The notes under the pieces: model-generated
The model's input: the letters and a program-made list of their open reading frames with translations, nothing else
Database searches by the model: none
Told to the model about the DNA's origin: nothing
DNA from: Cliona cf. orientalis
Lineage: Eukaryota; Porifera; Demospongiae; Clionaida; Clionaidae
Length of the DNA: 64,000 nt
Direction of reading: 5' to 3'
NCBI GenBank assembly: GCA_963930775.1
Contig: OZ005691.1
Span: forward strand, 4,833,000-4,896,999
Translations under genes and position numbers: made by a program
Part shown: in pieces, positions 365 through 58,782 of the stretch
Layout: every line of letters starts with the position of its first letter
Numbering within the stretch: position 1 is the stretch's first letter

Positions 365-2493
<2,129 letters not shown>

Positions 2494-4658: not shown

Positions 4659-6190
<1,532 letters not shown>

Positions 6191-11693: not shown

Positions 11694-13240
11694 ATGTGGA
11701 AGCTAAAGAGATCAGTGCTCTGCAAGAGAGTTCTTCCACTAGCAATCTTCACTTTGATTGTGCTGATAGTCATCGAAGTCTGCTATAGCTGTTTTATATC
11801 ATGTGATGTCATCATACTGGATGAGCCCAACAGGTATCAATCCATGATGTTATAACAGTGTGCAAGCTCTGAAAGATGACTAAAGTTTTAATTAATAAGG
11901 ATTATCCCCCCATTGTATACATTGTGCAGTAATAATTATTATAATACCCTGATAGTAGAGGTATACTGTTAACACAGTATCTATTATTTTAGGAAAATTT
12001 CGGAGGGATCTAGTGATGAGCAGTTGATTGTTGAAGCAGCTCACCGTGCTACCGTGTACCACAGCAGTACTAGTGTAACTGCTAGCACTCATACTACCAC
12101 TAAACCATCACATCACCGTGAGGTTGAGGCAACAAAGGTTGAAGTACCACCATCAGGGACAGCAGGGCATGATCAGCTCAGTTTTTGGAATCTTTCTATT
12201 TCTCAAAGAGTGGAGGTATAAGGACTAATCTTCTACATTGGCCAGCTAAGTACAATGTGTTTATGCCTCAGTTATGTAACAGGATCTAATCCACATGTAC
12301 ACCATGCATGCATTCACATGTACAGCTACAGCAGAAACAGGTTGAAAAGTTTTGCCAACTCTACATGTTTAATGTTAAATACAAACTCCCCCGAAGTCGG
12401 TATCAGGATCTGATTCTCAGTAGACATCTCTTAATCGACGACCACAGCAACACACTGTTCTGTTTTGCACCCAAAGTTGGCTGCACTAACTTAAAGCTAG
12501 CACTGTTTTATGCCCAGGGATTGCTGACAAAAGAAGACATCGATAAAACAAGGGACGACATTGATCAAGACAAATTGGAGGAATGCATTGTTTCGAGCTC
12601 ATTCCTATCCCGTAATAAACCAGAAAAGATTAAAATACTGAAGAGGCACTTCAAGTTCATAATGTATCGTAATCCACTAGAGAGATTACTCAGTGCTTAT
12701 CGTTCAAAAGTTGAGCGCTACCCACTTGTGGGCCTGAGGAAAGACTCTCCACACTACAACTGGTTGAGAAGACGTATCTATGGACACATTCGTCCCAGTC
12801 AGTACAAGGATTGGCTCCTCCATGGAGGGAGATCAGAGGTCAGCATTTCATTCGGTGATTTCATCGACTACTGGCTGACTTATGATCTGAATAGTGATGA
12901 ACACTTCAGAACAATCTTCAGCCTGTGCGAACCATGCCGTGTACGCTACAACTATTATGGAAACTTTGAGACATTCGATAAGGATGCTAACGTGTTGCTA
13001 GACAGAATTGGGGGTCAAGATGTGATGCTACGAAGTGGATACTATGGGGACGATGGCACCGTTCCTACCAAGAATCTCCTGAGGCAGTATTATGGAGAAT
13101 TAAACCTTTATCAGAAACTGGCTGTGCTCCGCAAACTTGCTCTAGACATTGATTTCTATTACCATATATTTCCACCTGAGGAGGATGCTCATAAACACAT
13201 ACTGGGAATTGATTATGACATTCAAAGACCTTATTACTAG
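11694..13240 (+). CDS. Carbohydrate sulfotransferase (sulfotransferase family 2, CHST8-14 type)
   Basis: Three exons, 11694-11833, 11993-12215 and 12326-13240, give 425 residues in one frame. The start places a short basic cytoplasmic tail (MWKLKRS) before a hydrophobic signal anchor of about 20 residues, the type II topology of Golgi sulfotransferases. A Ser/Thr/His-rich stem follows. The catalytic domain has the 5'-phosphosulfate-binding loop CFAPKVGCTNLK and the 3'-phosphate-binding segment FIMYRNPLERLLSAYRSKV, the PAPS-binding motifs of the chondroitin/dermatan/HNK-1 sulfotransferase group. It should transfer sulfate from PAPS to a glycan in the Golgi lumen; the acceptor sugar cannot be told from sequence. 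It is convergent with the receptor gene on the minus strand, with 220 bp between their stop codons. Confidence 0.93.
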
Positions 13241-13460: not shown

Positions 13461-16400
13461 TTACTCAGATGAGGCAGTATTGACAACATCTTCAGCTGCT
13501 GCAGTAGTTGGTGAAAGCATGTGAGCAAGGTTTATATCACAATGTTCAATCCTCTCATAGCGACTAATCTGCTCATAGCCACCCGAGTTGGAGTTAGCTA
13601 TAGATCCCTCGAAACAAGTTTCCATGTCATTCTCTTGAAGACCTTCACTTTCACAAACATCTGGTACAACAGAAGATTCAATTTGTACACTAGCACTATC
13701 AAGGGCAATGGGGTCTCTAATGAAGTTACTTTCCATGATATTTTCAATATCCTGATTTTCACATGCTGTCAGAGAAATTTCCAGATTGTGCTCTTTACAT
13801 TCATGGCAAGAATCAGCTAGGTGACACTGTGCCTGACTGATATCTTCACTTGACCGAGCAGATAATGCAAGAGTTGATGCTGGGGTTGCGGCAATTTCAA
13901 CTTGAGCTTCGCCCACCAATTGAGCAAGGTTAACATCACAGTGCCGAATTTTCTCATAACGTTGAATTTTCTCATAGTCTTGAATTCGCTCGTAATGATG
14001 AATTTTCTCATAGCCTTGAACTTGCTCAGAGCCACTAGTTTGTCTAGAGGGGAGCACATTGAATACAGGGAGTTTAGATGAATTGGCAATTACTGGACCG
14101 CATAATTCCTCCATCCTTTCTGTATGATCAAGAATATGCATTGTAGTTCCATTTACTTGTACTGGGATGGAGGGTGAGGCATTACCTTCTGGGTTATCAC
14201 TGGGGACTAGTTGGTGGCAACAATTATTGCCAGTGAGTTGAGTGTGATCACAACTTGCTTCTTTCATTTCCTCCTTGAAGTTCCAGTTTGGCTCCATTTT
14301 TGTGCAATTCTGTGCATCTTCGATGGAACTGTCTTTAAGCTGCTTTCTATCTTCTGAGCATAATAGCTGATCAGTTGTTTGTAACTTGCTCTGTCTGGGT
14401 GGCAAAGAAGGTCGGAGGTCATATAAATCAGGTATGTCATATATATGCTCGTTGAGATCGACAGGTGCTTCAATTTTCTGGCAATATCTTCTGTTAATGA
14501 CCACAATTGCTATTACTATTAAGAGAAGAAAAATTGTGACTGCTCCAGCTATACCAATGAAGTAGAAATTCTCGCTGTCTCTTGGTGAATCCAACTGATG
14601 AGAACCAGCTGCAACCATAGAATGATATCATCACCTCTAGCTCAGATGTCTACCTAGCTAGCTATTGGCCATGTATTAGTAGTCTATTACCATTATTATA
14701 GCTATATAGTCCATGAATACACAGAGTTGTGCACCTACAATAAGAAATTACACTACATTAAATATATTTAAGCTCACTAAGGGCTATAGCTATAGCCTGT
14801 GGACGTGTGTGAATACATGACTTTATACAATCAAGATTAAAATTTAGTTTTATCTGTGGGCTTTTTGATCTGATGTATGAAAAGTTACACCAATGAAACC
14901 TTCCCGTTATACGGATGTACAAAGTTAAATTTATGGGCTATATAGGCACTTTTGAGTCAAAGTTTCATTACTGTTTTACAAACACAGGCTAGAGACTACA
15001 CATATTTGAGGGAGATACATACTATAATTTGTGCAGTAGTCCCAGGATGACTCTGATGTGAAGCACCAGATCCTGTCCTTCAGCTGTCCAGGGTTCCTGC
15101 AAAGGTTAGCTGCACTATCCAGCTCAGGATAGAAACCAGGATGAAAGAGAAGGTGTGGTTCTTTCCATGACTGGCAGTGCTCTCCTCTCTGGGTGGTTGC
15201 CAGCTGATCAGCGAAGCTCTTACCACGGCCATCTGTAAGTGATACATGTAATAAAGTATTATGGTGTAGGCTATAATTATGTGCATGATGTGTGTCAAAA
15301 ATTAATACTGTTTATCATCAAAGTTTATCATAGGCTATATCACGATAGGCATAATAATATTATATTCATGCAGTGATACAGTAGTAACTTCTAGTACTAC
15401 CATAGGACGTGTTTTGAATGCGTAGTTAAATGATTGCGAATGGTGTTGTATAAGCCAGATTGCGATTCTAATGATTGCAAATAGCCAAACGAGAAAGGCA
15501 TACCCTCAATCTTAGCTATAGAGGTGTGGCTTATGAGGCTGCTTGTGGGGTGGGTTATAGAATGCCATACTGCTTGAGTGACAGTTGCGCTTGGCTTGGC
15601 ATTGATCATTGTGTTGGCAAGTTGGTAGTTGGCTTGAAGAATCGAAAAAGACTCATTCTTGACGATCAACAGCTGTACGTACATGCATGCAAGTAGATCG
15701 AGCACATGTGATATCGATAATGCGTGCACGTAAGTGAGCACGCATGCAAAAGGGATGTGATCACGTGTAACATTATTCATTGCGTATTCTTTTCTTGCGA
15801 TTCTTTTGATTGCGTCTTGTGTAAAAACTCGCAATTCGCAATCAAAAGAACCTCACATTCAAAATACGACCTACGGTATCTGAAAGGGGATCTGGTTGCC
15901 AGGTCCATATAATATAGGTGTGTACATGATGCATATGGAATGATGGGAGGCATCCCAACACGTTATTCCACAGAAAATCTATCACTTGGAAATCAGATGT
16001 ATACAGGGATGCCTCATTAATTTTGTTATTATCCCTAGTTATTATAATAATGCTCTCATTTGCAATAAAAATTTTGTAAATAGCTGTAATGGTATAATCT
16101 CACCAGTTTCACTGGGTAGTCCTTGAGGATGGGGCATACAGTCAGGACCAATAGGATAAAGGCTGTGGCCGGTAGCTGTGTCATCAAGGCAGTTGTCAGG
16201 CTGAAAGAGGAACTTCAACGATTGTCTCCGCATCTCAGTGACCAGGCGACTGTACACGACTGTTGAGCAAAACTGAATGGTGTCCAGCAGTTGACATCCA
16301 CTGCAGGCCAACATAGGAGCTGCTGTTTCTGCAAACAAGGAAATAATTTTTTCTCTCTTTCTCTCCCTCCCTTCCAGGTCACCTTGTTTCTTGCAGAATG

Positions 16401-19400
16401 GCAGTATCACATGGCAGAGTAGCTGCCTGGTGAAATGCTCACAACCAGGACTCCATGTGTCATTCTCAATGTCCATAGTTAACTGCAACAGCAGCTCACT
16501 CAGATATTGATTGATAGAGTCAAGCCCAAGTGGTCCCCATGCGGAGGGGCTTCTATCCACAAAGACCGTCCAGTTTCCATTACCATATCCTTCAATATCA
16601 TGACAAAAGCCGTAGCTTTCATACCGTTGACAGACCTCTATAGAGTTAAAAGCAAAAGGCTAGTTTCATCAAGGTACAAGTTTAAATTAAATATTATGTG
16701 TAACACTATCAGAGCATTCGGTTGCTAGTTATTATAATATTATATTATTGTGGCAACCTCTAACAATTTTATACTTTAATAGCTACGATCAAAAAACCAG
16801 TTATTATAAATTTTATGATGTTGATTGACCTACCAAATTGACTTAACTTACCACATTGAGGTACATCACAGTACTCCCACCTGACGTTAGGGTCACTGGT
16901 ATAACACCAGGGCCCAGCCCCCACCCCGCCAGGGTTGCGACAGGCAAATCTGTCAAAGAGCTCAGGAGAGTAAGTGGACGGGAGGAAGGGATGTTTGTGA
17001 GGAGCCTGTGAGCCCCACGACTGACAGTCTAGTCCACTCCTAGTCCTACGCACATATCCAGCATAACTTCGACTATCACTATGAGCACACCAAGAGGGCT
17101 CAGTATAGTGGCCTATTGTGGGTGCTGTGTGCATGAGTGAGAGTATACTTTTGATGCGTACAGTGTATAATAATGTGCGTATGCGTGCGTGAGTGTAGCT
17201 GTATTTGTATCACAAGAACTGTTAACTGCTCCTCAGGTTTATGAATTACCACATTGGTAAACCATTATCGAATATTTCTATAATGTAAAGTAACTAAGGT
17301 TTGGAGAAATACTTGTGCTATAATATTATGGTAATATACAAGTAATGAAAAACACTATCATTATAAGTGCCTTGTGTACAAAGATCAATCCATATAACAT
17401 CATATCCTATGCTGGTTACCGTAAATCGCGAATATTTCGACGTTAAAGTATTTTCGGACAGCATGGCTTGTGGGAAAATTAAACGCACGAAACACATGCG
17501 CGATATTAACGACAATGCGGTACAGGGTCGTTTGTCATAAAATTATTTAACGCGAAAATTTATCGCATGAAATATTTTTGACACGAAATATTCGCGATTT
17601 ACGGTAATTACCAATTTATATTATAGTGCTCCCATCTGAGAATTGAACTTTATAATCTCTAGCACAACATAAATTTAGCATTAATATCGCTGGTTTGTGC
17701 CTACCAATTCTTGCTACTTCCAAGTCAATAGGTATGCACTCTGGATTGGAGCCAGCAGGGTGCTCCCGAGTATCACACTTGGCAGCTAGTCGTGAGTACA
17801 GTTCAGGTGTCTCCGCTTCACTGATGAATCTTTCACAGATGCTTCCGGCTGAAAAAGTATCGCATGATGTTTTGCAGATGAGCCGAGGAGTGGGGACATC
17901 GTGACTGGGGTCACAGTACGGGTAGACACTGTGACAAGCTATGGACTGGGCCAGCCTCTGGCACCTGTTCTTGAGGGCAGGATCGAGGCTACTCAACTCA
18001 CTCCTGAAGAATGAAATTTGTACATAAAAGGTTTACTATCATTATTGCATATATTATGTACCTGTTGGCTGTGCCCTCAATTCTTTGAAGTAAATCAATC
18101 ACCTGTTTCAGTAACTCCAACCATCCCATATCATTGTTCATGCTTTCATTAATGAACACCAGAATCGATTGATCCACAAATGCACTGCATTGGCTATGAG
18201 TGTAGTGGAGACATTCGCTGCAATAAAGAGAGAGAGAGAAGGAGAAGAGAGGGAATATAAGAGGGCCGGGAGAGAAGGAGGGGAGAGAAAGGAGAGAGGG
18301 AGGGAGGGAGGGAGGGAGGGAGGGAGAGAGAGACTAACTATGGCTGCTGGATAGTCATGATTCAGGTAGCCATCATCATCTCAATGTCTTTCCTAACCAC
18401 ATTTAACAAAAAGTAACTGCACCATAATGTGTTACCAGGACTAAAATTAATACTGATAGCTATGCTTGAAGGTTAACATAATTGGTTATTCCGCTATTAT
18501 TAATAGTGATTTGCAGTACCTGACATTGTCTGGAGGATCTGTAGGAACTATAAAAACAGAGAGAAATAGAGAGAGAGAGAGAGAGTGACAAGGTTCAACT
18601 ACAACTAGCTAACACATTCAGCATACACATGATAGCACAAGCTTACCTGGTTCTACTATCAGGATAATGGTCTTCCAATCTCTAACAGGCCTTTTTCCTT
18701 CAGGGGGATTTACCTGTAAAAGGATGAACATACGAATTAAATAGATCTAAAATTCAAGCAATTTCATCTTAAGCACTACAAATCCATAAAGTTATTTTTT
18801 TCCATGAAATACCTCCTAAATTCCGTTTACACTAGGCCTTAAAACCGCTTTGGAAGCCAGCTTAGGTTTAAGCTGGATTATTGTTAATGCGCAAAACCGC
18901 CTTACAAGTTACATGCCCAGTAGAAATATACTTTTCTGTGGTTATTAGGTAATGATGACGTAATCTAAGAGGTAATTGCCAGAAAATTCAGGGCCTCTGA
19001 CAGTGTGGAGCCTTTCCGCTGAGACTTGAAAATCGGTATTATATGTAGACTCTGAGTATCTGACGCATGTATCCAGCGAATACATTACAAACTGAGTGCT
19101 ACTTTCTCTGCCAAGTACCGCCGGCCGAACTTCACGCGTTCTCTTGGCTGACGTAATCCCGTGGACGAACCTGTGGATACTATGAAACTAGAGCTCTGTA
19201 GAGCACATACCCCGCGCGCACATTGCGCAATCTATAGAGTTAGCTACTTTTGTGTGCATGGCTATAATTTTGTGAACTTTAAAATGATTGTATGTAGCTA
19301 CCAGAGGTCCCTATACCAGATCTAGACTACTAGGAGATATGAACTGATACTTCCAATATTATTTTTATTGTAATAGTATAGCCGTGTTTACACTACGATT

Positions 19401-22400
19401 TGGCTCTGTCAGCGGATGCGGATAGACTATAGATTTCATTATCAATTTCGACGATCTTTACCAGTCATAATATTATTCTTGGCTATACTTAGTTGTGCGT
19501 ATGAGCAGAAAACACAATGGCATGCATTATGCATTGAGTAGGCACTGTCGATAGGCGTAGCTACATTAGCCAACAAAAAGGCACTATTTGTGATGCCTGT
19601 GGACCGTGTCACTGTCCATTGATTTGACGTACAGTGAAGCCAGTTTTTCGCCGAATTCAATTGATTCGTTGTGCTTACGAGTCGCTTAGATGCCTACATC
19701 TCGAGATATGGCGATTTTTGTGCTCACGATGACAACAACGACAACGATGACGACGATAACAACAACGATTACTTTACCCCTTGCGCATGCGCACGGGGTA
19801 ATAAAGTTAGCTTTGGGCTATATATAGCACGCGCGCTGTGTGCCATGCCGCGACTTGATGTTCAAAAGCTGTCGAGTTCGTCTCCTGTGATTGAAATTTG
19901 TCAGTGTCGAGGTTGAAGTCAGTCGACTCTCAGACTCCATCTCTGCGATTGAGGTGCCAGTATCAATGTGTGTATGCACTATATTGACGACCTTTTACCA
20001 TATGAACCATTATGCAGCTACTGGGCATGTGGTCAAGTATTCATTGTCTTCTATACTGATTTTTTTTTCAAGGGACCACTCACTAAGCAGAAAAAAGAAA
20101 TGGTCCAGAAACCACCACATAGTTGAGCTGGATGCGTAGTAGAGCCATACAATGCAAGCAGGGTAGCCTATACATCAATATTGACCAAAGTGGGTAATGG
20201 TAATGGTCGTCACGTTTATGTGCGCGCGTGGCCCCGCCCCTCACGTAGCGTGTGGGCGGAAAACATTACATATGGGAAAACTTTAAAGGGTTATGCCATA
20301 ACTAATTCTAAGGCGTGAATCAAAATTCTTTCAAGTCGAATCTCTAGTTTTGACCCATTCTGCGTGCCCATGTAAAAATTGTCCCCCAAGTGCTCCCAAA
20401 CCCCCATGAATTAGATTATTTAATTATTTAACTTTGCTTTTTTTCTACTTAGTGTGTAATTTTTTTTCAAGGGGACCACACACTAAGCTGAAAAAAATGG
20501 TCTGAAAACCACCACACTTTAATTCTAAGGTTGTATCAAAATTCTCCGCCGTCACGTCAAATCTCTAGTTTTGATCCATTCTGCGTGCCCATGTGTCCCC
20601 AAGTGCTCCCAGCCTTCCTCCACGAATTATTTCTTTTTTTTTCTACTTAGTGTTTAACTAGCGTAATGTGCCAGTTACCGACAGGTATCAACTATCGGAA
20701 GTACGGGTATCAATTATCGACATAGGGCCTTAGTATAGGCAGTGGGCGTGGCGCGTTTAATAATAACTTCGCGTGGTCGATCGCGACTCGCTTCTGTGCT
20801 TCAGGCTGGACTTTTGAAGGTAGGTTTTGCTTCATTTGTGATAAGATGACCCTCACAGTGTCTTACTTTCTCAATACAGGGGCAAAGACGCGATGGTGCC
20901 GTTCCGAGGCGCTTCTGCCAAGATTGAAAAAACGATAAAGATCGAACAAGCTCACCTATGAACATGAAGTTGTCTCAGTAGTTAGAGCTCATGATTATGC
21001 ACCTGCTAGTATTTTTATATAATTTTCTTACTCTTGGATTGCATGCACTGTGATGACAAAGCTCCAAGCGACGATAATTGATTGTATTGAAAGTATACGG
21101 TGTGCCGATAATACGTACCGACTGTTGATAACTGGCATTCGCAATTATAAGCTAAAATTGCCATTGCAGACGTATTTTGATCGGCAGCCCCCTGAGACTT
21201 TAGGTACTTGTAGCTCTGGCGACCCCCTACCTTTTGGTCCAAATTCGAAGTTCAGGTGATGTTCCTAATTAAGCAACAGCACACGCGGGAGAAAACCGTA
21301 TGTCGATAATTGGCACTTTACGCTACTTAGTGTGTAATTAGTGTGTAATTTTTTTTGTCTATAATAATTTCGATCTGTACATAGTTACAGGGGAGCACAA
21401 AAACTTAGCGGTGAACTTGAACCATGTCCTCAAGAGGGAGAAAATCCAAGAACGAAACGTGATTTGTAAACCATGTCTTGGAGGTGGTTTGAACCAGTTT
21501 AGGATATGTTGCTATTCAAACTGTCCTGGTGTAGCTAAGCGTTCTAATTTGGCTTATGGCGCTTACATAAGCTAGATTAAGGCCCTGTGTGTAAATGCGA
21601 TTAAAGGGTATTCCAAAGTGGTTTAGTTTAAGCCAGCTTGTAGGTGTAAACGGGGCTCTAATGGGACACCCCCCCCCCCCATTGATCTCTCTCTATCCCT
21701 CTCTACCGCTTATACATTTATTTAGCTAATATATAGTTAACTTCCTCTACTTACCAATGTGTTATCAGCCACACAGCAATACTCTCCAGCATCTTGTTCT
21801 GAAACTGCTGGAATAAAATTAGGGCATCCATTGCGCACAAGAGGCACACTTGTAACTTCTCTCAGCAGCCGAACGGACGGGGAGGGTATGCCTGTTCCTT
21901 CACATGGAACTGTGACCGAATCTCCTTCAGTGACTCGAATAACAGTGTGACCTCGCACAGGATTGGTGACTCTTGCTGGGGCTTGATCTCCAAAGTAGTG
22001 CACATAAGAATAGTATCTATTAGACCGAGGTGGTGACTGCATACGCAATTCAAACAGGTAGTAGGTGTCTCGGTTGATATCGTTGAATAGGTAGTTTATC
22101 TGTTGGTTGACTTCCTCATACCTCCCATTAGGATTATGTGGTGGTTCCATATTATCCTCAAAATCATAGGGTACACTCGACTGGTGAACCCGTACAGAGA
22201 AGGTATGCTGGCAGATAGTCTTATTCTCTCTCACGAGTGGAGTCCAGGAAAAATTGACAGAGGGCGAGTCAGCACTTGACAACAGCTGAGGACGGTTGAG
22301 CAAAATATCAGGAATCACACACTCTCCAATAATACTGTTGATAGAAGCAGTAGACAACGGAACTATGCTTGTGATATTACTACCTCCGAAGAAATCATAG

Positions 22401-25091
22401 ACAGTGCACTTGTACTCTCCCATATATCTTATCGGGCAAGGCCTGATATGTAGATCACAGTCGTAGACTCCACTGATAGAGCCACCTCTTAACTTACAGT
22501 AATTTGGATAATTTTTGAAGAATAGCTCATATTTTTCCCAGAATGTTGCATTTGACAGTGGGACATAGGAGAGCCTTGGCTTATATAAACGCTCCCACCT
22601 GACATAGGGAGGGTGTATTAGGTTCTTTCCATCAGTAGTCTGAATGGAGCACGGAAGGACACATGACGCGAAATTCATATCGATCTCAATACATCTTTCA
22701 TCATGATAGAGACGAACTGTAGGGTTTGCAATGCAAGCATACAGCTAGATAATAACATTTGAAAAGGAAAAGGTATGTGTATTATCCAAGCACAGCTTCC
22801 TTTGCATTCGCTGAAATATTTCATGGAAAGTACCATAGTGTCTCGGGCAAGAGGGTATACCCCCATGCACTGCGTTTCAGTGTAGTAGCCTCCATAAAAA
22901 TGCATGGCATTTTCATTCTGGGTAAGCACCCCCGTGGGTTGAAGTCACCAGTTATGTTTAAGTGCCCATGGGTGCTTACCCGGGACACTATGGTATATCT
23001 AGCAATCATTAAAGGCATACTGATCTATACTGTAACTTGCGTTAACTTGGTTTTCGTGCAACAATAATAATAATATTATTTTTGTAATTAAGTAGAGCAT
23101 CATTGCTATGTTTCTAGATACTTGAAAGACCTTAGTTATTGAGCATAGACGTGGTATACTAATAACTTCATATACCACAATTACATTACTACAGCAGACT
23201 ACCAGGTGGTTGTTACTCACTGTTGACGTTTGTAACGTGCCACAATGGCTCCGTGCGACGTACTGGAATGGCCATAGGGAGGCGTGTGCAATATCGGTGC
23301 AAAACGCATACAACAATATTTCGTTCAATGACATGTATATTTATATACGTATACATGGTATGGATAGGAGGGGTTGGGATATGGGTTGCCAATGGTTAGC
23401 AGGGTTAGTCTCTAGGGTTTGTCTATGACAGGGGGGAGATAATGATTGGCAGCAGCGACAACAGCGTTGGTGTAGTGGTTGGAGCTGTTGTGTATGGAAC
23501 AGAATGTAGCTAGCGGGTTCAAATCTCGCTTTATGCTTTGATTTTTTTTATTCACTTGTCGAAATTTTTCTAAGTTCATTGAACATAGCTACTGGTATTG
23601 GTGGATTTAAATTTAGCAGTTGCTGTGCATGTGTGTATTGGATAATTATTACACATCATAGATTACATATAATTACCTCCGATGATAACCACAGAAAAGT
23701 AAGGGTTCTATCTAGAAATTTTGGTTTGGGATGGAAGGGGGCGTGGCACTTTCACGCACAGTCCCCTCCTCCAAACCTTTAAATATTAGTTAGACACTGT
23801 TTAGGAGGTTTCTGTGTGATTTAGAAGACTGAAGGATTCCATAATGTAGAGTCCCGAGCGAAGCGAGGGTTCCATGAGAGCCCTGAGGTCTTCTAAATCA
23901 CATAGAAACCAACTAAACAGTGTCTAACAAGTTTAGATCATATAGCTTTGTATTGCTAGAGCCAGAGAGCAAACCTGTAGGTGACTATGAAAATCTTGTA
24001 GGTGACTATGAGATATAGATACCTGTCAGTAGCCAATCAAATTGCAGTATTTGTACATGTTGCAGCTATGATCTAATGGGTATTAATATTTGTGGGTTTT
24101 AGGCATAAATGTATACTCTATGACATAATTCAGAAGAACTTACTATTTACTTGTATTTCAAATAGTATATGTTCCCCGCCTCCTCCCTCTCTCTTTTTTG
24201 TCTTGCTACTCTTCTATGAGGGAGAAGCTGGGTGCTTTGGGGGGGGGGGGGGGGGGGGGGGGAAGCTACCCCTCTGCCCCCCCCCTACGGATAGAACCCT
24301 GAAAGTAACTTGCTCCAAGGGATAAGCATATAGCTATGTAGCTATTATATAATAGGTGTGTGTACTCTGAGCGTATATGTGTGTTTGAGTGGATATCAAA
24401 CTATAATTTCAAAAAACATCATGCATGAAGCCCAATTTTGGAATTCCGAGGCAGCAGAGTGCTATAGCTAGCTATAATAGTGGTCAATCAGTACAGTGGT
24501 AATCATGGGACCCGAGTATGCTGGGTGCTCACACCGTAGCTATAGTGAGGTGTCTGCTTTACTGGCCCGTTGCATCTCTCATGCCCAGCACCATTTCACA
24601 TGCAGAAGGGGGCTGGGCATGAGACTAAATTACATAATAGTTAGACACTGTTTAGGAGGTTTCCATATGTGATTTAGAAGACCAAAGGATTCTCTATATA
24701 GAATCCCGAGCGAAGCGAGGGTTCTATGAGAGCTCTCAGGTCTTCTAAATCATATAGAAACCGACTAAACTGTATGAAACCCTGAAAACTATATGATCTA
24801 GATACTACTAAGCACTGACAAGTCACCGCTCATCGGCAGCAATGATTTTGGCCCGGAAATAATATATTTATAGGCAGAAAATTACATCTTCGTGAACAGA
24901 ACAAGACCAAAATAATTAAATTAAATTGTATATAGCTAGGCTACCTTCTTGTCAGTTGATCATAATTTGTAAGAAAGCATAGAGAAATTAGGCTAGTTGT
25001 ATGGTATGAAAATAGACTCACTTTCTACTGAGCAGTAGACTGTAGCCACGAGCAGAACAATGCACGATATTAATACTTGCCAATGAATCAT
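13461..25091 (-). CDS. Kinase-less ROR-like receptor with YExI-repeat cytoplasmic tail (receptor B)
   Basis: Eleven exons in transcription order: 25022-25091, 21755-22716, 18647-18713, 18520-18547, 18062-18217, 17705-18003, 16852-17124, 16383-16637, 16104-16328, 15023-15232 and 13461-14608. All phases agree and give 1230 residues. A signal peptide starts the protein (IVLLVATVYC). Then come a divergent Ig-like plus FN3-like region, an Ig domain ending DAGEYCC, a Frizzled-type CRD (CHSVYPYC, CKTSC), a six-Cys kringle (DCQSW, CRNPGG, PWCYT), a second CRD (YGFCHDIEGYG, CHVILPFC), a degenerate kringle, a membrane span (ITIFLL-type, about 14510-14575) and a tail of about 340 residues. The tail has IYDIPDLYDLRP, four YExI units, LPPR, and a second YEQISRYERI pair. 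No kinase is present. Ig, CRD and kringle together are the ROR/MuSK plan, so Wnt-like ligands are a reasonable inference. Tyrosine phosphorylation of the tail and SH2 recruitment are inference. Confidence 0.85.
13935..14034 (-). repeat. 18-bp coding repeats (YExIxx)4 in receptor B tail
   Basis: Four in-frame units read YEKIHH, YERIQD, YEKIQR and YEKIRH, followed by CDVNLAQL. A related two-unit module, YEQISRYERIEH then CDINLAHM, lies about 120 residues later (near 13515-13570). The paralogous tail at 31593-32650 has four units; the dead copy at 35482-36972 has two. Confidence 0.9.
17416..17607. mobile_element. M3 inverted-repeat element, copy 2 (near-intact)
   Basis: 192 bp with almost perfect terminal inverted repeats (TTACCGTAAATCGCGAATAT and its complement). 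Located in the receptor B intron between the first CRD and the first kringle. Confidence 0.92.
18226..18336. repeat. GA-rich tract in receptor B intron
   Basis: Purine-rich GAGAGGGAGG repeats on the plus strand. Transcribed, they would give a pyrimidine tract immediately before the CRD1 exon acceptor at 18217. Confidence 0.8.
18916..20025. mobile_element. Element X, copy 1, interrupted by element Y
   Basis: Ends CCCAGTAG and CTACTGGG. Left part (18916-19180) and right part (19805-20025) match the uninterrupted copy at 37508-37995 (for example CTTTTCTGTGGTTAT and TATATATAGCACGC). The middle is element Y. Located in the second intron of receptor B. Confidence 0.85.
19188..19801. mobile_element. 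Element Y, copy 1 (inverted), inserted in X
   Basis: Ends AGAGCACATACCCCGCGCGC and TTGCGCATGCGCACGGGGTA form inverted GC-rich termini in an otherwise AT-rich region. It carries an internal run of ACAACGA/GACGAC triplets. Other copies: 48441-48836, 52660-53246, 56052-56632; a diverged relic is at about 25566-25795. Confidence 0.85.
20070..20660. repeat. Element W and a 240-bp tandem repeat
   Basis: About 20302-20460 is repeated at 20520-20660 (shared AATCTCTAGTTTTGA and CATTCTGCGTGCCCATGT). The flanking CACTAAGCAGAAAAAAG and the body recur inverted at about 45610-45950. Non-coding. Confidence 0.75.
22831..22995. mobile_element. M1 inverted-repeat element, copy 4
   Basis: Ends TACCATAGTGTCTCGGGCAA and TTACCCGGGACACTATGGTA; the terminal inverted repeats are the best preserved of the four copies. 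Located in intron 1 of receptor B. Confidence 0.88.
23455..23545 (+). repeat. tRNA-like SINE head or tRNA pseudogene
   Basis: TGGTGTAGTGG matches an A box and GGGTTCAAATCTC a B box at the usual spacing, followed by a T run. The stems do not pair convincingly into a cloverleaf, so this is not called as a functional tRNA gene. Confidence 0.45.
23789..23928. mobile_element. M4 hairpin element, copy 1
   Basis: Nearly self-complementary over its full 140 bp: GTTAGACACTGTTTAG and GATTTAGAAGAC at the left pair with the same sequences inverted at the right. The centre has CCGAGCGAAGCGAGGGTTC. Confidence 0.92.
24239..24262. repeat. 24-base G run
   Basis: Uninterrupted G homopolymer. Comparable C or G runs lie at 3644-3669, 33657-33682 and 36902-36920. 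Length in the true genome is uncertain because such runs sequence badly. Confidence 0.9.
24640..24773. mobile_element. M4 hairpin element, copy 2
   Basis: Same element as 23789-23928, about 850 bp away and in the same orientation. The right end has decayed (CTAAACTGTATGAAAC instead of CTAAACAGTGTCTAAC). Confidence 0.9.
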
Positions 25092-25142
25092 GGTAGGTAC
25101 TAGGCAGTGGACTCAGGATCGCGTATATAGCTACCTGGTTTC

Positions 25143-25487
25143 TACGCTAACGTGTGAAGAAATTTTAATGAGATGCAAATGATATTCAGTGCCATTTCAG
25201 GAAGTTCCGGCCAGGTCTATCGGAGCAGCGTGCATTTTGGAGGCTGCAAAGAGCTTCAGGGTAGGTACAGAAAAACGGCGCTAGCTACGGAACTCTAGGA
25301 TGCCGTACATCATGTAGCTGAGACGCTTTTTTGAGAGACTCAGAGCTAGTCTAGTATTCGCCTGGCTAGCGTGATACATGTACGATTTTGATTCCCACCA
25401 ATGGGCGTGGCAGGAACCTGGGCGGAACTTCCTGAAAGGGCGCTGAGTATCATGCATCTCATTAAAAGTTCTTCACACGTTAGCGTA
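25143..25487. mobile_element. M5 element with about 68-bp terminal inverted repeats, just upstream of receptor B
   Basis: Starts TACGCTAACGTGTGAAGAA and ends with its complement; similarity between the two ends continues for about 68 bases. TA on each side fits a TA target duplication, as in Tc1/mariner-derived elements. It begins 52 bp upstream of the receptor B start codon, so it occupies the promoter or 5' UTR region. Confidence 0.88.
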
Positions 25488-26905
25488 ATGCAGTGGCGGT
25501 TTTTGAGGGGTGTGATTGCATAGAGGATATGGCGACCTTTACCGCATTGGCGAAATTTTTCTGGCTTGGCAAAATATTTACCCCGCGCGCATGCGCAAGG
25601 GATAGCACAAGCGCCAGATCTGGTGATCTAGGCGTCTGTGATTCGTAAATAATTACAGGTATTATCCGTCGATATCGTCGAAAACTGGCTTCATTATGCT
25701 TCGAATCGTTTGGCAAGGTCAATGAGCGTTGGCAACGCCTATCAATACTGCCCACCATGTGCTTTCTGCTCATGCGCATAACCTGGCACAAGTTGTGCCG
25801 TCTGTTGACAGCCGTCACTATAATAATGTAAGTGAAGACCGTCAACAGACTGCAGGTGGCATGCATGGAGTTCGAGCTCCCTCTCAGCGTGCGGGATATG
25901 ACATATGCTGTACCCTGCCCCCTAATATCAATAATAATAATATTCAAGGACTGAAGGGGCAATGCACCCCTTTATTCTCAACTCAGATTTCTAAACATTT
26001 ACCAGGCCTGATTATGAGTAAATGCGCCTTAACAGCTTCCAAATCTATTCCACTCGACTTGCAATTCATTTTTCACCGAAAAAATTGTGATATCAGCCTC
26101 GATCGTGTCAAAAATGGGCGTGGTTTGACAAAAGTGGGCGTGGTTGTAAAAATTTTGCGCACGCTTCGCTTATTGCTATAGCTAGCTGTTGTTATTATTA
26201 AACCCCCTAGTAGCTAACGCTGCATTATTTTATCCATACAATGCTGTAATTATTATGAACCACTCTGTCCATACATTCTAAAATTAATCTTTATCTTTTG
26301 AATCCAATAATAATATTCATACAATATATGTCATAAAATTAATATCAGTAGCTATATTATGGCCTAGCCATATTGTTTAGTTCACTACTCTTACTCTTTG
26401 AGACACAGTGAGTCACAATAAATTTCTTACAGTTGAGTCATGGAATGTTAGAGCAATTGGGACATCTGTCGATGATGGATCAGCAGCCGTAAGTGCCACG
26501 ATCCCAGTAGAAGCTGGTTTACTGCATAGGCATGGCAGTCACATGAGCTGAGCTGGAGTGACCTAGGCTGGGTTCATACACTTGAAGTGATAGTTCAGTA
26601 TGTAGTGGGCTCTACACTGACAACCAGAGGGATTGACAATCTACAGGATGAAAACAGTTAACTTAAACTTAAGCATTTGTAAGTCCATCCACCCCTGCCG
26701 GGCCAAAGAATATTAAATTGCAAAGGCCAAAATTTAATTATTATAGTTTTCCACATAGTATGGGGACAACAAATTGTGTGCGTGAATTATAAGCAATTCC
26801 AAGGAAAAAGAGTGCTGGTATCTGCCATCTTTACAGTTACAAAAACTAATGCCAATACTTGCAATTAGTGAGTGCTGGATCGATGAGATCCACCACACTT
26901 TCAGA
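25488..26905. other. Intergenic; diverged element Y relic and no supported gene
   Basis: About 25566-25795 resembles the middle of element Y (TTTACCCCGCGCGC, GTGCTTTCTGCTCATGCGCA). Around 26433-26488 a possible exon (ESWNVRAIGTSVDD in one frame, with acceptor and donor) could belong to an unrecognised gene, but nothing joins to it convincingly. Confidence 0.5.
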
Positions 26906-27312
26906 TTATGAAACTGATCATTATCACTTCGATAAGCCAACAAGCACATATCCTTTTTACTTTATCACTGATATCATAAAATCTGGTATTGATGACCATA
27001 TTAATTTAAATTTTATGCTGCCATTGCCACATCCATACACAGCATTTCCTTAAATTTACAAGTGTGAAGCTGATCATTCTCATTTGGATAAGTCAACAAA
27101 CACCTAGCTATTCTTTTTACGTTATCATTGACATCATCAAATCTGGCATTGATGACCATAATTGTTAATAATGTACAAATTAATGCAGCCATTGCCAGAT
27201 CCATACACAGCATTTCCTTAACTTTATAAGTGTGAAGCTGATTATTCTCATTTGGATAAGTCAACAAGCACCTATTCTTTTTACGTTATCATTGACATAA
27301 TCAAATCTGGCA
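26905..27312. repeat. Tandem repeat, unit about 156-168 bp, 2.6 copies
   Basis: The landmark TGAAGCTGATCATTCTCA or a close variant begins at 26909, 27065 and 27233, and ATCCATACACAGCATTTCCT ends the first two units. Non-coding. Confidence 0.88.
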
Positions 27313-27441
27313 TAAACACAACAATCTGATGTTTATCCAAGTTATATAGTATACTGCAGCTATGAGCTATAAAATGAACAGCATGCGTATGTGCAGCTCA
27401 GATCCAGAACAGAGAAGATCTGAAGTATCAATGACCAAGTG

Positions 27442-30400
27442 ATGCACAGATTACTTGTGAGTTGTATTCTCTTGCTGTAGCGTAGGTAGCTAGCATAATT
27501 AGTTTATCACAATTAAATCCTCTAGCATAATTAAATTTATACTTAATTTATCTATTTCTACAGGCAGAGGAGAGACAGTTTAGGGTAGGTTTCATTCTTT
27601 ATTTTAAGCATGAAGAAAAATATTATGATATCAATACTCTTGTTATAATGTTATTATAGGATGAGAGGGATCAACATGGAGTAAGTTGATACATGTTTTT
27701 AATTCACTCTGAATCATGTAGCTGTCCTGTGTATGTATTGCAACATGAATGAAGGAAAACAGGCATAGGCTGGGCAAGGTATGTTAGTTACATTGTAGCT
27801 AAGTTTTCATTATTTTCTGATAATCATAATCTTTTCAATTTTGGCTATTATAGAGAATGGAGTTGCTTCAAATTCAACTTCAGGAAACCAGTGACGAAAA
27901 CACAAAAAAAGAGCTACAAGAAGAAATACTAATAACAGAAACAAAGAAAGAATTGGCAAATGCAAAATATGTGAGCTAAATTGTGCATGCAAGCTATATT
28001 ACTTTAACATAACAGTAATTATCATAGGAAAAAGCAGACAAACTGTGGAGGCAAAGATATTTTGAGCAAGTAAACTGTTAAAAGTCAATGACAAGCTATA
28101 AAATTAATTATTCAGTGTTTAATTGAGCTTTGACATAATTAATTTTACACAGAGACAAGTATGGGGTGCAGCTACTGCAGACCAGTACGTTGTACAATGG
28201 AAGGAAAAGGCAGAGGAATGGGACAAAAAGATCAAGATAAGCGAGGAGCATCTGAAGAAGCTTGAAATTGCAAAAGAGCAATACATTGATGGTATGTTGA
28301 TCGCGGTAACTACTATTATTATGCAGTAGCCTTCTACTCCACGTAAATCTATATTAATTGCAATTATTATTGCTCCCGCTTTTTTTCCCCAGATTCAGCT
28401 GAATCCAAGCGCCTTCTGGAAGAGGCCTTAAAGGATGGCTATATAGAAGTAGTAATCATAGTATGCATAGTATTGGGATTGCCTGGAGTGGGGAAAACAC
28501 ACTTAAAATTCCTTTTACTGGACCAGCGACCACCACACCTTCGAACTAGTACCATTTGTGCTGAAACCCCTGTACGAATAGAAATCCGAACCATCACAGG
28601 GACCAGGGTACAAACAGTTGAAGGAAAATGGTCAGAAGTTGAAGGTGAAGATATGTTTGATGTAGTAGCGGAAATGATCCTGTTAGCTGAACCGGAATCC
28701 TCAAGTGAAATCCACCCGCATGTAACCGATGACTCTGTGGCTGCAGCTCAGAAGCCAAAAAAGAAAAGCGTTTTTACTAGACTCATCCGTAGGCTAAAAA
28801 AGCGTAGTACATCAGTCGAACATTTGGAGGCCACTGATAGTCCTCAAGCTAGTGCTAGTGCTTCTGCTCTGCTTCAGGCTTCAGATTCAAGTGCATGTGA
28901 GAAAGCTATGAATGTGATCATGAATAAACTCACTCAACACATAACTAAAATGAAGGGTAAAATTTATGAAGGCAAAGAGTCCCTGCTTTCGTGTAAACAA
29001 AGATTGAAGTCAAAATGGGTTTACTTTACAGATAGTGGTGGGCAGCCTCAGTACCATGAACTACTTCCACTCTTCATGCGGCGCATATCTTCGGCACTGT
29101 GTGTCATTCGCCTCCCTGATAAGCTAAATGAGATCCAATCAGTTGAATATTTTAAGGATGGTAAGCAGATTGGTGCTGCTCAGTGTTCTCAATTCACTTC
29201 CTTGGATACCGTAAAGTGCCTTGTAAACACAATTCAGTCATACGCCAATCAAGATAATCCTCCAAAAATTATTCTAGTTGGCACGCATCTTGATAAGTTA
29301 GAGGAACAATCCAAACATGATACAGAAGGGCTTGCAGCCGATTCTCATGAAACATTGGAAGATAAAGATAGGCAGCTGATAGAGATTCTTGAGCGTGATT
29401 TCTCGGATCAACTAGTATACTACTCTGAATCGAGCAAGGAAAAGCGATTGCTATTTACCCTAAATACGCTCAATCCAGGTGAGCATGAGAATATTGCTGC
29501 TCAGTCAATTCGACGATCAGTAGAGGCATCAGGAACAAAGGGGATTAAGATTCCCATCTGGTGGTATATCTTGGAGCTGATGCTCCAGGAATTATCCAAG
29601 GAGCTAGGTAGAGGGGTCCTTAGCAGGACAGAGTGTCTGGAAATGGTTCATCTGCTTGGTATTGAAGAAGATTCATTTAATGCAGCTTTGGTGTATTTTG
29701 ATGAACTCAATATCATCAAATACTCACCGAACATCCTTCCAGATGTGGTCTTTATTGATTCACAGGTACCTCTTGACAAGGTGTCCGAATTAGTGCATCA
29801 TAGTTACCTGCTCAGGCAGCCTACTTCTTCCTTGGACGCAGAATGGAGGCACTTTAGAGATCAAGGAGTAGTCAGCAAGGAGTGCTTGAAGACGTTTGAT
29901 CGCCACTACGTTCCGGGTATCTTCTCAGAGAGTCACCTTGTCCAGTATCTCAAACAGCTTCTTGTACTTGCACCAATCCCTAGGCCAGAGTGGGCACCTT
30001 GCTCAAAACAACTGCAACAATCAGATGCTGGCAAAGCAGAATCTGATGAAACACACTTTGTGATGCCAACTCTCTTGCCCACGCTTTCAGAGGGTGACCT
30101 TGAAAAATGGCGTCTTTTTTCTCCCATAGCAGCTCCTCTTCTTATTAAATTTCCTAAGGGTTCTCGACGTGCTGGGGTCTTTTGCTGTTTTATAATTCAC
30201 CTTATAAGGCATTGCAATTGGAAGTTTCTTCTCAATAAAGAAGAGAAGCTGTACCGAAACTGTGTTAGAATGCATGATATAATTGACAGTCCCCCTATGT
30301 CTGTTGTGCTCATTGACTCTAATTCATACACTGAAGTTCACGTGAATGCTACCACTGGCATTCCCATAAGTGAGTACACTTCTCTCTTGCCCACCATCAA

Positions 30401-31223
30401 GCAGACCATCCTCAGTGGCATATTCTCAGCATGCAGAGCACTAAAGTATGACCTAACTAAGCCTGAATTTGCATTCTACTGTCCACATACTACTCCCTCA
30501 GAAAAGGCAACAAAAGTAACAATATCTAGCACTGTTTCAAGTAGTCAACCTGCAAAAACCCAGCATACAGCAAGTCTCACCACTGATAGGAAGTATTGGA
30601 AGTGTGATTTAGATACTGCAGGTACATACTTCGGCCCCCTTGAAGAGCAAAAACACACTATTTGGTTTGGTAAACCAAAAGGTACTCCACAATATAATTA
30701 TATTAGAGATAACTCTACACAAAAACTATACTAACATGCTGTGCCTATGCAGATTCATGTGTGAGATCCAAAATTTCTGCTAAATGTGGCGAATTCTGTG
30801 AGCATATACAGCTAGTAGCTAATTGCTATAATATTATTATGTTTAAGTACATGCATGTATGAACACAAATTGATTTCTCTCCACATACTTGCAGCCCATC
30901 CAACTCCTAGCAATCTAGAGCTAATTAAATGGAAAAATGAGCGAGGAGAAATAAAGAAGTTTCATTTGAAGAACGAAATCTGCCACAAATGGGAACGACT
31001 TGGTAATCTCCTTGAGATACCATTACCGATTCTTAAAAGTATGGAGCAACAGTACCGTGGAGATGCAAGAGTCAGTATGACTGCTGTGTTCCAGTACTGG
31101 ATACTAGAGAGACCCTCAGATTTATACCCTCTCACTTGGGAGGGACTGGATCGTCTCCTTAATGATGCAGAGTTAGGTGAAATAGCTGAAGACCTTAAGC
31201 AAGCCCTGAATAATCATTTATGA
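27442..31223 (+). CDS. Coiled-coil, Roc-COR-like GTPase with C-terminal death domain
   Basis: Exons: 27442-27456 (tentative start), 27564-27584, 27660-27680, 27854-27970, 28028-28069, 28153-28291, 28393-30621 and 30895-31223; one frame of about 970 residues. The N-terminal third is charged and helical (KKELQEEI, EKADKLW, EEWDKKI), a likely coiled coil. The GTPase has P-loop GLPGVGKT, DSGGQPQYHELLP as the switch 2 motif and GTHLDK as the base-specificity motif. A COR-like winged-helix region follows (WYILELMLQEL, YFDELNIIKYS). The last exon encodes a death domain (WERLGNLLEIP, VFQYWILE, TWEGLDRLL). Such proteins are candidate scaffolds in stress or innate-immune signalling; this is family-level inference. 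If the last intron is retained, the frame ends at 30734 without a death domain. The 3' half has a decayed copy at 34310-34915. Confidence 0.82.
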
Positions 31224-31592
31224 TTCTTTGTGCATAATTTCGGTATTATGACATTGTAGTGATATGGGTGGAGATCACTCGTGCTGTGGCACCTACGTAT
31301 CTGGCTGTCCAAGTTGCTGGTTGAAGAAGCTGTATTGGATCGGTTGTTGGCATCATTTCTCTTTGTTTATTAATTTTTTTTAAAACGCGAAATGATTGTA
31401 TTATTATGAAGCCTGTTTATCTGATTACAATACCATGGATAAAAGATTGTGAAAATTAATTTTAATGGTTGGGGATTCAAGTATTATTAATAAGCATAAT
31501 AAAAAAATTTAGTAATTGTAGCTACACCATGGCACTGATAACAAACTATATAGCTATAATACATAATTTTGTTCAAGAAAATTATTGCAATA
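31224..31592. other. Short intergenic gap between convergent genes
   Basis: AT-rich, no frame or repeat recognised. It holds the 3' ends of the death-domain gene (+) and receptor C (-). Confidence 0.6.
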
Positions 31593-51303
<19,711 letters not shown>

Positions 51304-53588: not shown

Positions 53589-54134
53589 CCCCAGTAGCTG
53601 CATAGTATAATGGTGCATGTGGTAAAAGGTCGTCAATAGAATGCGTACACATCGATCGATGCTCGCTCCAGAAATCATGGAGATTGCGTCTAAGATCGAC
53701 TCTCAGCCTTGACAGCGACAAGTTTCGATGCTTCAATCACAGAGACGAACTCGACAGTACAGTATTCCTTCCGAACTTCAGGTTGGTCACGCTGCTGCAG
53801 TCGCGCGCGGGACAGCCCCTTGTGACAATGCATGCTATATATAGCGCAAGGCTAGCTTTATTTATCCACGGCATTACATAAGCCAAGAAAACACGTGAAG
53901 TTTAACCAACAGTACTTCTCAGAGAAAGTAGCGCTCAGCTTGTAATGTATTCGCTGGATACACGCGTAAGATACTCTACATATTTACTGATTTTCAAGTC
54001 CCAGAAAGGCTCCAGCGAGGCCTTGAATTTTCTCATAATTACCTCATAGATTACCTAAGAGATTACACCATAGGTTTCATCATAATTACACCATAATTAC
54101 CTCATAACCACAGAAAAGTAAATTGCTACTGGGG
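53589..54134. mobile_element. Element X, inverted copy
   Basis: Ends CCCCAGTAGC and GCTACTGGGG; body is the reverse complement of copy 2. Its right end lies 41 bp before the acceptor of the orphan Ig exon. Confidence 0.88.
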
Positions 54135-54175
54135 AGATAAATAGGACAGTGGTAAAAGAGAGGACTCTTTTACAG

Positions 54176-54760
54176 ATTGCATCACCCCTGATGCAATACT
54201 CGATGCTCCACTCATATTCTGTAAATTTCTCCTGGACATTTGAGAATGACAACAGCACAATTTGCCATCATGTCTTCTCTGTACAATCCTATCAATCATC
54301 TGTACCTTATGACCTTGAAGATAAAACAGAGCCTATACATGTAGGAGCAGTATATCAAAGGTACACGCAAGTCAACCAACAGACTTACCATATCTTTGCT
54401 GACATTGACAGAACCTCCTACCACCAGTTTGAGTTGCGTATACAAGCTAACCTGTTTACCACTAGTGTCAGAGTTTACAGGCATTTCTCTTTCTTGTACC
54501 ACTTTGGAGATCAAGTACCGGCAAAAGTTGTTGAGCCTGCTTCAGATAACACTGTCATTCGAGCGTATCTTGGACATTTAGTAATACTTCCTTGTTCTGG
54601 AATTGGCATGCCGGATCCATTGTCATTCGTACTGAGGGATCCACACATGGAACTTCCTATATGTGATTATTGTGCGTATATAGGGGCCTATTTTAGTTTT
54701 ATAGCTCTGGTCAGCGAATTTGATTTTGGAGAGTACTTCTGTGTGACTACTAATATCTTG
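54176..54760 (+). pseudogene. Orphan FN3/Ig exon of the ROR-like receptor family
   Basis: Homologous to exon 2 of receptors B and C: VNFSWTFENDNSTICHHVFS, YLFELR-like YHQFELRI, YHFGDQVPA, an Ig core with LPCSGIGMP and FGEYFCV, and a donor at 54761 in the same phase. Acceptor at 54175 gives CITPDAILDAP in the expected frame, but about 20 nt are missing relative to the paralogues before VNFSW, shifting the frame. No partner exons (signal peptide, 67-nt, 28-nt, CRD or kringle) were found on this strand. Best read as a broken gene fragment in divergent orientation to receptor C. Confidence 0.8.
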
Positions 54761-54906
54761 GTGAGTTGTGAAGGATGCAGCTATACTTCATAGTAATAAT
54801 AATAGTTGATGGATTTGAATATCACTGGTTGGCATTATTTTGTTTTGACAGATTGAAATGATGATAATAATAATATTATTGTACTGTAGACTCAGTTTTA
54901 ATACTG

Positions 54907-57805: not shown

Positions 57806-57919
57806 TGCATTCGCTCAATCAGACGCTGCTCTTGATTAGTTGCCACACTTCCGGAAGTACTGAAAGAAATAACTGTTAACACACTGCTTTAATAAATTAT
57901 TAATGAAGCTGCTACTTAC

Positions 57920-58455: not shown

Positions 58456-58612
58456 GTACATGATGTACCAGAATAGTGTAGTAATCTACTGTCTGCATTA
58501 TGTTTATGCACATGCACATACATAAACACACTCATGCACACACACTCACACTCACACGCACACATACCCAAAATATTCATAAATATGAATATGAAATTAG
58601 CCATGACCCCAG

Positions 58613-58782
58613 TATCCTTCCAGACTGACTATCGCTGGACGGTCTCAACTGTCCTTGCTATCCTCGTTGCAACATGCACATTCATTGTGGGGATCACATG
58701 TTGCTTTTTGGTCGACATTGGCAGGAAATATTTCAGGAAACAAGTGAGCCGTAAATCAATCTCTACATCTCAGACTGTGTAA
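58613..58782 (+). CDS. Possible last exon: membrane span and short basic tail
   Basis: After an acceptor at 58612, a frame gives a short extracellular piece, a hydrophobic span (VLAILVATCTFIVGITC) and a 20-residue basic tail (RKYFRKQVSRK) to a stop at 58782. It could be the membrane exon of a small receptor, perhaps connected with the orphan Ig exon at 54176, but no intermediate exons were found. Confidence 0.3.

Follow-up and report, generated by a model that had tools for sequence, protein, structure and literature searches.

A tyrosine-repeat tail exon in the place of the kinase exon in clustered ROR-like receptor genes of a sponge

The stretch of DNA from the sponge Cliona cf. orientalis analyzed here (C3:4833000-4896999, 64,000 nt, referred to below as the window; C1, C3, and C4 are contigs) contains part of a cluster of related receptor genes, labeled A to H, of which C and D are the main subject of this work. 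The cluster was mapped by tblastn across 199 kb around the window, and the genome searched comprised 216.8 Mb in 149 contigs; L-numbers denote loci and P-numbers denote relatives found by protein search. Three kinds of cytoplasmic end occur in the cluster on related ectodomains: a tyrosine kinase (A and B), a long tail with repeated YExI motifs (C and D), and a short stub (E, G, and H). The ectodomains of A and B, as well as those of C and D, carry a doubled unit of a Frizzled-type (Fz) cysteine-rich domain (CRD) and a kringle. Each of A, B, C, D, E, G, and H is followed by a terminal exon on its own strand, and none was found downstream of F.

The initial annotation had placed two complete gene models at 13461-25091 and 31593-51303. 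Both genes are present there, on the minus strand, with splice models that are consistent in phase, provided that C is given a linker exon. The models of C, D, and B were assembled one exon at a time, guided by homology (splice sites shared with B) and by phase. Gene C, running from 25091 to 13461, consists of 11 exons, 10 of which were located; its linker exon (~28 nt, phase 1 to 2; 28-31 nt in A, B, and D) was looked for, was not located, and is written as N, and the model is phase-consistent if an exon like that of A, B, and D is assumed. Gene D, running from 51303 to 31593, consists of 11 exons, all located and phase-consistent, and encodes 1088 residues. Gene B lies on the plus strand at C3 4824-4835 k, and its model is phase-consistent throughout (1397 residues). 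The kinase-bearing relative that had been reported from the window is thus there with its kinase, although B ends at 2493 and only its last two exons (365-2493) are inside, the rest of its ectodomain lying to the left. The features of the three genes are as follows.

365..601, plus strand: gene B, kringle 2
872..2493, plus strand: gene B, terminal exon with membrane span and tyrosine kinase (PF07714, 5.5e-89)
4659..4802, plus strand: 48-residue scrap of the B kinase (97.9% identical, tblastn)
25022..25091, minus strand: gene C, exon 1, signal peptide (hydrophobic start, donor GTGAGT in phase 1)
21755..22716, minus strand: gene C, exon 2, with a first module (Ig1 by eye), an FN3-like module (by eye), and Ig2 (Ig_2/Ig_3 E 3e-08, last module only); entered in phase 1, left in phase 0
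18647..18713, minus strand: gene C, exon 3, end of Ig2 (87% DNA match to B 4828307-4828391)
17705..18217, minus strand: gene C, CRD1 (exons 18217-18062 and 18003-17705; Fz 4.5e-07 on 17616-18032; 10 Cys, Cx8Cx6C)
16852..17112, minus strand: gene C, kringle 1 (Kringle 4.9e-21; 6 Cys)
16104..16637, minus strand: gene C, CRD2 (exons 16637-16383 and 16328-16104; 10 Cys, Cx8Cx6C; Fz 0.053, below cut-off)
15023..15232, minus strand: gene C, kringle 2 (Kringle 4.4e-11; 4 of 6 Cys)
13461..14608, minus strand: gene C, terminal exon with membrane span and YExI tail (6 YE-x-I/V motifs)
51225..51303, minus strand: gene D, exon 1, signal peptide
49424..50019, minus strand: gene D, exon 2, FN3-like module (by eye) and Ig2, no first module (86% DNA match to B from the acceptor on; Ig_3 2.2e-08)
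49208..49274, minus strand: gene D, exon 3, end of Ig2
49037..49064, minus strand: gene D, linker exon (28 nt, phase 1 to 2, homologous exon in B)
42841..43491, minus strand: gene D, CRD1 (exons 43491-43336 and 43139-42841; Fz 3.8e-09; 10 Cys)
41979..42245, minus strand: gene D, kringle 1 (Kringle, Pfam)
40815..41804, minus strand: gene D, CRD2 (exons 41804-41550 and 41039-40815; 10 Cys, Cx8Cx6C)
39043..39279, minus strand: gene D, kringle 2 (6 Cys)
35485..36494, minus strand: D', a spare terminal tail exon in the last intron of D (two in-frame stops; its relatives P0009 and P0011 are free of those stops)
31593..32650, minus strand: gene D, terminal exon with membrane span and YExI tail (5 YE-x-I/V motifs)

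The profile check proposed in the initial annotation, run with Pfam on the ectodomain and membrane span, found in each protein two kringles (whole-protein E 9.2e-30 in C and 3e-33 in D), an Fz domain (7.6e-10 in C and 3.8e-09 in D), and one Ig domain, the combination that characterizes the ectodomains of ROR and MuSK. The claim that both the CRD and the kringle occur twice is borne out by Pfam and by the cysteine patterns, with the reservations that CRD2 alone falls below the Pfam cut-off (0.053 in C, 0.0016 in B, and 2.4e-05 in A, the match covering model positions 1-104 of 110) and that kringle 2 has four cysteines in C vs six in B and D. Ten cysteines and the C-x8-C-x6-C spacing are present in both CRD1 and CRD2 of B, C, and D; a profile comparison of the two CRDs, with four sequences per side, gave a probability of 3.5 and an E of 0.012, and CRD2 of B had no match among PDB sequences up to E 1. 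The first two modules of B and C ("Ig1" and "FN3-like") had no Pfam match and are named by eye; FN3 in particular was tried and the label stays a by-eye one. No homologue of the first of these modules was found in D. A frame resembling a tyrosine recombinase/integrase by eye (49974-50552, plus strand) overlaps the start of the FN3-like exon of D, at the place of the missing module, and Pfam gave no convincing match for that identity. As had been noted from the sequence, the terminal exons of C and D encode a single putative membrane span after the kringle, recognized by eye as a hydrophobic stretch followed by basic residues.

Among the relatives that bear a kinase, gene A lies on the minus strand at about C3 4823-4817 k. 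The CRD1-kringle 1 part of B matches ROR2 (9fse_A) in one stretch with 108 bits, and the rows that score higher are plasminogen and HGF, via their kringles alone. The B kinase, compared with PDB, matches an EGFR-labeled chain first, then MuSK and Trk, with ROR1 later. Within the genome, the kinases nearest to it by score, among 95 of 1222 candidates scored, are those of A (67% identical) and of C3:206-212k (45%), followed by others at 35-45%. The locus C3:206-212k (L024) has Fz, kringle, and kringle-plus-kinase frames and represents a third kinase gene; a cysteine-rich frame between its kringles has no Pfam recognition and is, by eye, probably a second CRD, in which case the CRD-kringle unit is doubled there too. 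The doubling had been counted as part of the novelty of the tail-bearing genes; it was rejected as such, being common to the kinase genes A and B and probably to L024. The combination with the tail retains its novelty to the extent that neither such receptors nor such a tail are named in the open-access literature at the level of titles and the beginnings of abstracts. With L024 combining a kinase with Fz and two kringles, the kinase form is the more widespread; this locus speaks for a kinase-bearing ancestor, from which C and D would be derived.

The absence of a kinase from C and D, claimed earlier, agrees with a tblastn search of the 199 kb with the B kinase (E 1e-3), which matched A, B, and the scrap at 4659 only. 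A kinase exon following the kringle exon, named beforehand as the case that would speak against tail-bearing receptors, was not found behind C or D by this search, and an overlooked exon of this kind was rejected on the same grounds.

The kinase gene B and the tail gene D part just behind the last kringle. Their DNA aligns in blocks of 76-86% identity that begin at the FN3-like exon and take in introns as well as exons; the match ends 28 bp beyond the donor of kringle 2, at B 4833628 and D 4872014, within the phase-1 intron that directly follows the last kringle. Beyond it lie the kinase exon in B and the tail exons in D, and the same end point was obtained with B extended across the kinase exon and D across both tails. 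The ectodomains of B and D differ by a nonsynonymous divergence (dN) of 0.033 and a synonymous divergence (dS) of 0.127 (590 codons, six segments). The membrane span and the cytoplasmic part are encoded by one terminal exon, and the acceptors of the kinase, tail, and stub exons all read as phase 1, so that these exons could replace one another without loss of frame. Gene C is a mosaic, being B/D-like in the FN3-like/Ig exon and in kringle 1 (kringle 1 dN 0.088 to B and 0.206 to G); its CRD2 is G-like (CRD2a dN 0.020 to G vs 0.292 to B), and for CRD1b, B/D and G are not distinguishable as the closer relative.

The tails of C and D are open over 353-380 codons and have no Pfam match above the cut-off. 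Their repeated YExI motifs, described before, were confirmed, with six YE-x-[I/V] motifs in C (shuffle mean 0.13) and five in D (0.16), numbers reached in 0 of 10000 shuffles, as was also true of the number observed in each of the six tails tested. In most tails a box like HIYDTPDSYDLRPSLPPRPSKL is followed by a YE-x-I/V array at six-residue steps and, in the longer tails, by a second box, YERI..HCD.NLA; as exceptions, D is without the YDxP part of the first box, L029 without its PPRP part, and L030 without both. In C the array consists of an 18-bp unit repeated in tandem, and in L027 of a 36-bp one, 98% matching, so its copy number can change easily, and the motif count ranges from 2 to 9 across seven tails of this genome. 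Spacing like that of an immunoreceptor tyrosine-based activation motif (ITAM; YxxL/I-x6-8-YxxL/I) occurs between non-adjacent motifs only, in two pairs in C, one in D, none in D', and one to three in three other tails. The dN/dS of the tails is 0.38 for the pair C-D and 0.36-0.58 for the nine pairs that remain once those with D' and the C1-C1 pair are set aside, compared with 0.47-0.68 for five pairs with D' and 0.68 for the C1-C1 pair. In 15 chosen pairs of tails with outside relatives, with gapped cells left out, the motif positions Y, E, and I are identical in 69/70, 68/70, and 64/70 cells, vs 3399/4175 elsewhere.

A whole-genome search with the C tail, the counts of which are lower bounds, returned at least 18 matches, which were grouped as 13 copies and a further, weak match (C1:12172994, E 0.05). 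Three copies are located on C3 (C, D, and D'), six on C4, and four on C1; most of the query is covered by four of them (C, D, D', and C4:3683350), the others being partial or split, with stops in C4:3402482. These dispersed copies rule out a tail exclusive to C and D, and the view of the tail as a feature of ROR-like receptors gives way to that of a dispersed terminal exon, which also follows exons of the EGF, LRP, and Ig types. Of the six copies on C4, two were examined closely. In L026, EGF_CA exons precede the tail, the nearer of which appears to end in a phase-1 donor. The tail of L030 comes after an Ldl_recept_b exon and a membrane exon of its own, and its likeness, by eye, begins only from SVDTKQL on. 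With 150 of 186 candidates scored, three of the six tails on C4 have an Ldl_recept_b match no more than 2.5 kb upstream. On C1, Ig exons lie upstream in L029; the visible Ig donor is in phase 0, so at least one more exon would be needed before the tail. The frames upstream of the tail in L027 are of an unassigned family, and their link to it is uncertain because repeats separate them. Two copies of one domain (...NIPSGVVIERVLLV...) were noted there, at L027 892-1744 and 2546-3252 on the plus strand, with no Pfam match above the cut-off.

One further locus places part of the tail exon next to a mobile element. L028 (1-10000) contains a Helitron-type element (Helitron_like_N 1.1e-31, PIF1 1.9e-27, and OTU 0.0011, the last below the cut-off), flanked by two 5' pieces of the tail exon that stand in tandem with it and are 100% identical to each other over 366 bp. 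A stretch of 988 bp in L028 is 98.6% identical to positions 8240-9219 of L026, the EGF-type gene, which comprise the last intron, the acceptor, and the 5' third of the tail exon with the membrane span and the YDTP/PPRP box. A splice-ready tail fragment therefore lies beside, and perhaps within, a mobile element; this fragment would not imply that the tails of C and D arrived by Helitron.

A protein search with seven tails returned 35 proteins, for none of which a Pfam domain had been precomputed. Two of them, P0005 and P0023, come from the window itself; the branch length to tails of this genome is zero for P0012 and P0019, and P0001 (98%) may be the other haplotype. Relatives that differ include P0002 and P0014 (82 and 80% to C), P0020 and P0024 (50 and 48% to C), P0007 and P0016 near D, which has open relatives at about 90%, and the two already listed near D'. 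Nine of the 35 proteins, shorter than 180 residues, were dropped from the tail tree, which has 33 rows; no tree includes the Helitron-side copies, four of the C4 copies, or the weak match at C1:12172994. All six longer tails of this genome have one or more differing outside relatives in their group, with weak support in the case of the C4 tail, and if the sources of these relatives are other species, the duplications of the tail would predate the species split. A search for tail relatives carried into prokaryote genome contigs by host contamination gave 24 pattern matches, none of them confirmed.

Taken together, these observations argue somewhat better than evenly (roughly 0.56) for C and D as ROR/MuSK-type receptors in which the kinase terminal exon gave way to a shuffled tail for phosphotyrosine docking, within a family that resembles paired receptors. 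One exchange of a terminal exon would have turned a receptor kinase gene into an adaptor-type receptor, with the kinase, tail, and stub forms still neighbors and the position of one breakpoint retained at a resolution of tens of bases. The site pY-E-x-I is close to that preferred by Src-type SH2 domains, YDxP is close to the site of Crk/Nck-type SH2 domains, and PPRP-type boxes are close to SH3 sites; 103 SH2 matches, counted per exon, are present in the genome. We propose that the kinase-bearing form came first, and that ligand binding gathers the tail receptors with their kinase siblings or with a Src-type kinase, which would phosphorylate the YE-x-I tyrosines in trans. These, along with the membrane-proximal YDxP and PPRP sites, could then recruit SH2/SH3 adaptors, while the stub receptors would bind ligand without signaling, so that the same or a similar ligand would have three outputs in a paired-receptor system built on ROR-like ectodomains. 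Among the roles put forward by the initial annotation, that of a co-receptor finds some support in the nearly identical ectodomains of B and D, which would suit either co-receptor or paired-receptor use. To our knowledge, little is known of how sponges couple surface recognition to tyrosine signaling, and the genes described here provide a concrete candidate for a tyrosine-tail signaling system in these animals.

Several known systems are instructive by comparison. ITAM-bearing immune receptors share with C and D the repeated YxxI in a long tail with no enzyme of its own, but the repeat spacing here is six residues, ITAM-like spacing being limited to non-adjacent motifs. Gene capture by Helitrons has a possible parallel in L028, where a host tail fragment lies beside or inside the element. 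ROR and MuSK have the Ig, Fz-type CRD, kringle, and membrane span of C and D, but differ in that the CRD-kringle unit is doubled here, that C and D are without the kinase found in B, A, and L024, and that the tail has no Pfam match. ROR2 reportedly signals without its intracellular region and acts with Frizzled (PMC11219042), and a kinase-less ROR-like receptor can thus have a function. CEACAM1 and CEACAM28 are described as having matching ligand domains and antagonizing tails (PMC2110893). These two precedents favor the model of three outputs for the same or a similar ligand. Paired receptors such as these (PMC2110893 and PMC2832619) are clustered paralogues with near-identical ligand-binding parts, different cytoplasmic ends, and signs of exchange between copies, the last paralleled here by the mosaic gene C. 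In the sponge cluster, B and D likewise have near-identical ectodomains and end in a kinase and a tail, respectively; unlike in paired receptors, the counterpart of the tyrosine tail in other members is a receptor kinase or a stub rather than an ITIM opposed to an ITAM, and the ectodomain is ROR-like.

A number of points weigh against the replacement of the kinase by a docking tail. The exon joins of C and D are predicted from genomic sequence, the linker exon of C is unlocated, and two cysteines are lost from its kringle 2. Outside C3, the tails would belong to their upstream exons by order, strand, and distance, and most copies are partial. The constraint on the tail is moderate, with little contrast to the broken D' or the C1-C1 pair. 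In the 15-pair comparison the middle "x" of the motif is also kept, in 60/70 cells, and tandem repeats may align in register and so overstate the contrast at the motif positions. The six-residue spacing of the repeats differs from that of the canonical ITAM, and YxxI is compatible with an endocytic sorting signal as well. A broader and more tentative proposal, possible rather than probable, sees the exon as a mobile phosphotyrosine cassette of the sponge lineage, comprising the span, the YDxP/PPRP box, and a variable YExI array, joined repeatedly to ROR-like, EGF, LRP-type, and Ig ectodomains, which Helitrons could carry along with its splice acceptor. Such a cassette would parallel the ITAM principle, having arisen independently outside vertebrate immunity and partly by kinase replacement.

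The tail may instead serve in endocytosis or sorting, its repeated YxxPhi motifs binding clathrin adaptors so that ligand is cleared or taken up without kinase signaling. YE-x-I/V fits YxxPhi, the repeat number is variable, and tail copies also follow Ldl_recept_b exons of the LRP type, a class of uptake receptors; nevertheless, YxxPhi does not require the E at +1 that is conserved in 68/70 cells, and most longer tails (with D and L030 lacking YDxP) have a YDxP-like site and a PPRP-like box, which resemble SH2 and SH3 sites, so that we regard this explanation as rather unlikely. We give still less credence to C and D as decoys or dead ends, that is, kinase-less ligand binders with tails that are neutral leftovers. 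The stops in D', the in-frame stop of E in an upstream stretch that matches the signal-peptide exon of G, the two cysteines missing from kringle 2 of C, and a tail dN/dS just moderately under 1 are in keeping with decay, yet the tails of C and D are open and have open relatives at 80-82% (C) and about 90% (D), and YExI is the best-kept part of the tail, subject to the caveat of repeat register. A decoy role, already raised for C and D by the initial annotation, could be filled by the separate stub-tailed genes E, G, and H, which would be better candidates, even though E and perhaps H look damaged.

It is very improbable that the tails are alternative 3' exons, such that alternative or long-range splicing would let transcripts of one ectodomain end in any of the three parts, the kinase, the tail, or the stub. 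The shared phase of the terminal exons and the two same-strand tail exons after D would allow it, and D' could possibly be used as an alternative terminal exon of D, ending at 35851. On the other hand, all genes of the cluster but F own a same-strand terminal exon, the tblastn search placed no kinase match within C or D or just behind them, and joining C to the kinase of A would mean skipping the ectodomain of A over a distance of about 30 kb.

Apart from the genes with kinases and tails, the cluster contains the stub-tailed E, G, and H and the fragment F, an FN3-like/Ig piece split across two frames. G and H lie on the plus strand at about C3 4937-4976 k and have the order CRD-kringle-CRD-kringle, with the kringle-2 acceptor lost in H. 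The stub terminal exon of E, G, and H encodes a membrane span and some 23 residues with no YExI, and two further copies of it are located at C3:5035k and 5369k, one carrying a stop. In E, no CRD or kringle match was found by tblastn between the two features below (54122-58782).

54122..54793, plus strand: gene E, FN3-like and Ig module
58603..58782, plus strand: gene E, terminal exon with membrane span and short tail without YExI (80% to the terminal exon of G)

Other frames of the window were also noted. The last intron of D contains a 98-residue, cysteine-rich frame with a signal-like stretch and no Pfam match (33078-33371, minus strand). Between C and D, a large frame (28347-30734, plus strand), which by eye starts like a P-loop and has weak Ras/Roc matches below the Pfam cut-off, is followed by a weak Death-domain frame (30819-31223, plus strand), also below the cut-off; together they perhaps represent a ROCO/STAND-type protein. 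A near-identical frame (NGACGKRSSIECVHIDRC...) is present at 53606-53881 of the window, at L027 5306-5638, and at C3:4981649-4982062, and is, judged by its recurrence, a putative dispersed repeat of unassigned kind. A single-frame Sulfotransfer_2 gene (12290-13240, plus strand, 3.2e-26) faces the 3' end of C, and a Fibrinogen_C exon (63312-63743, minus strand, 1.8e-35) is located at the right edge of the window.

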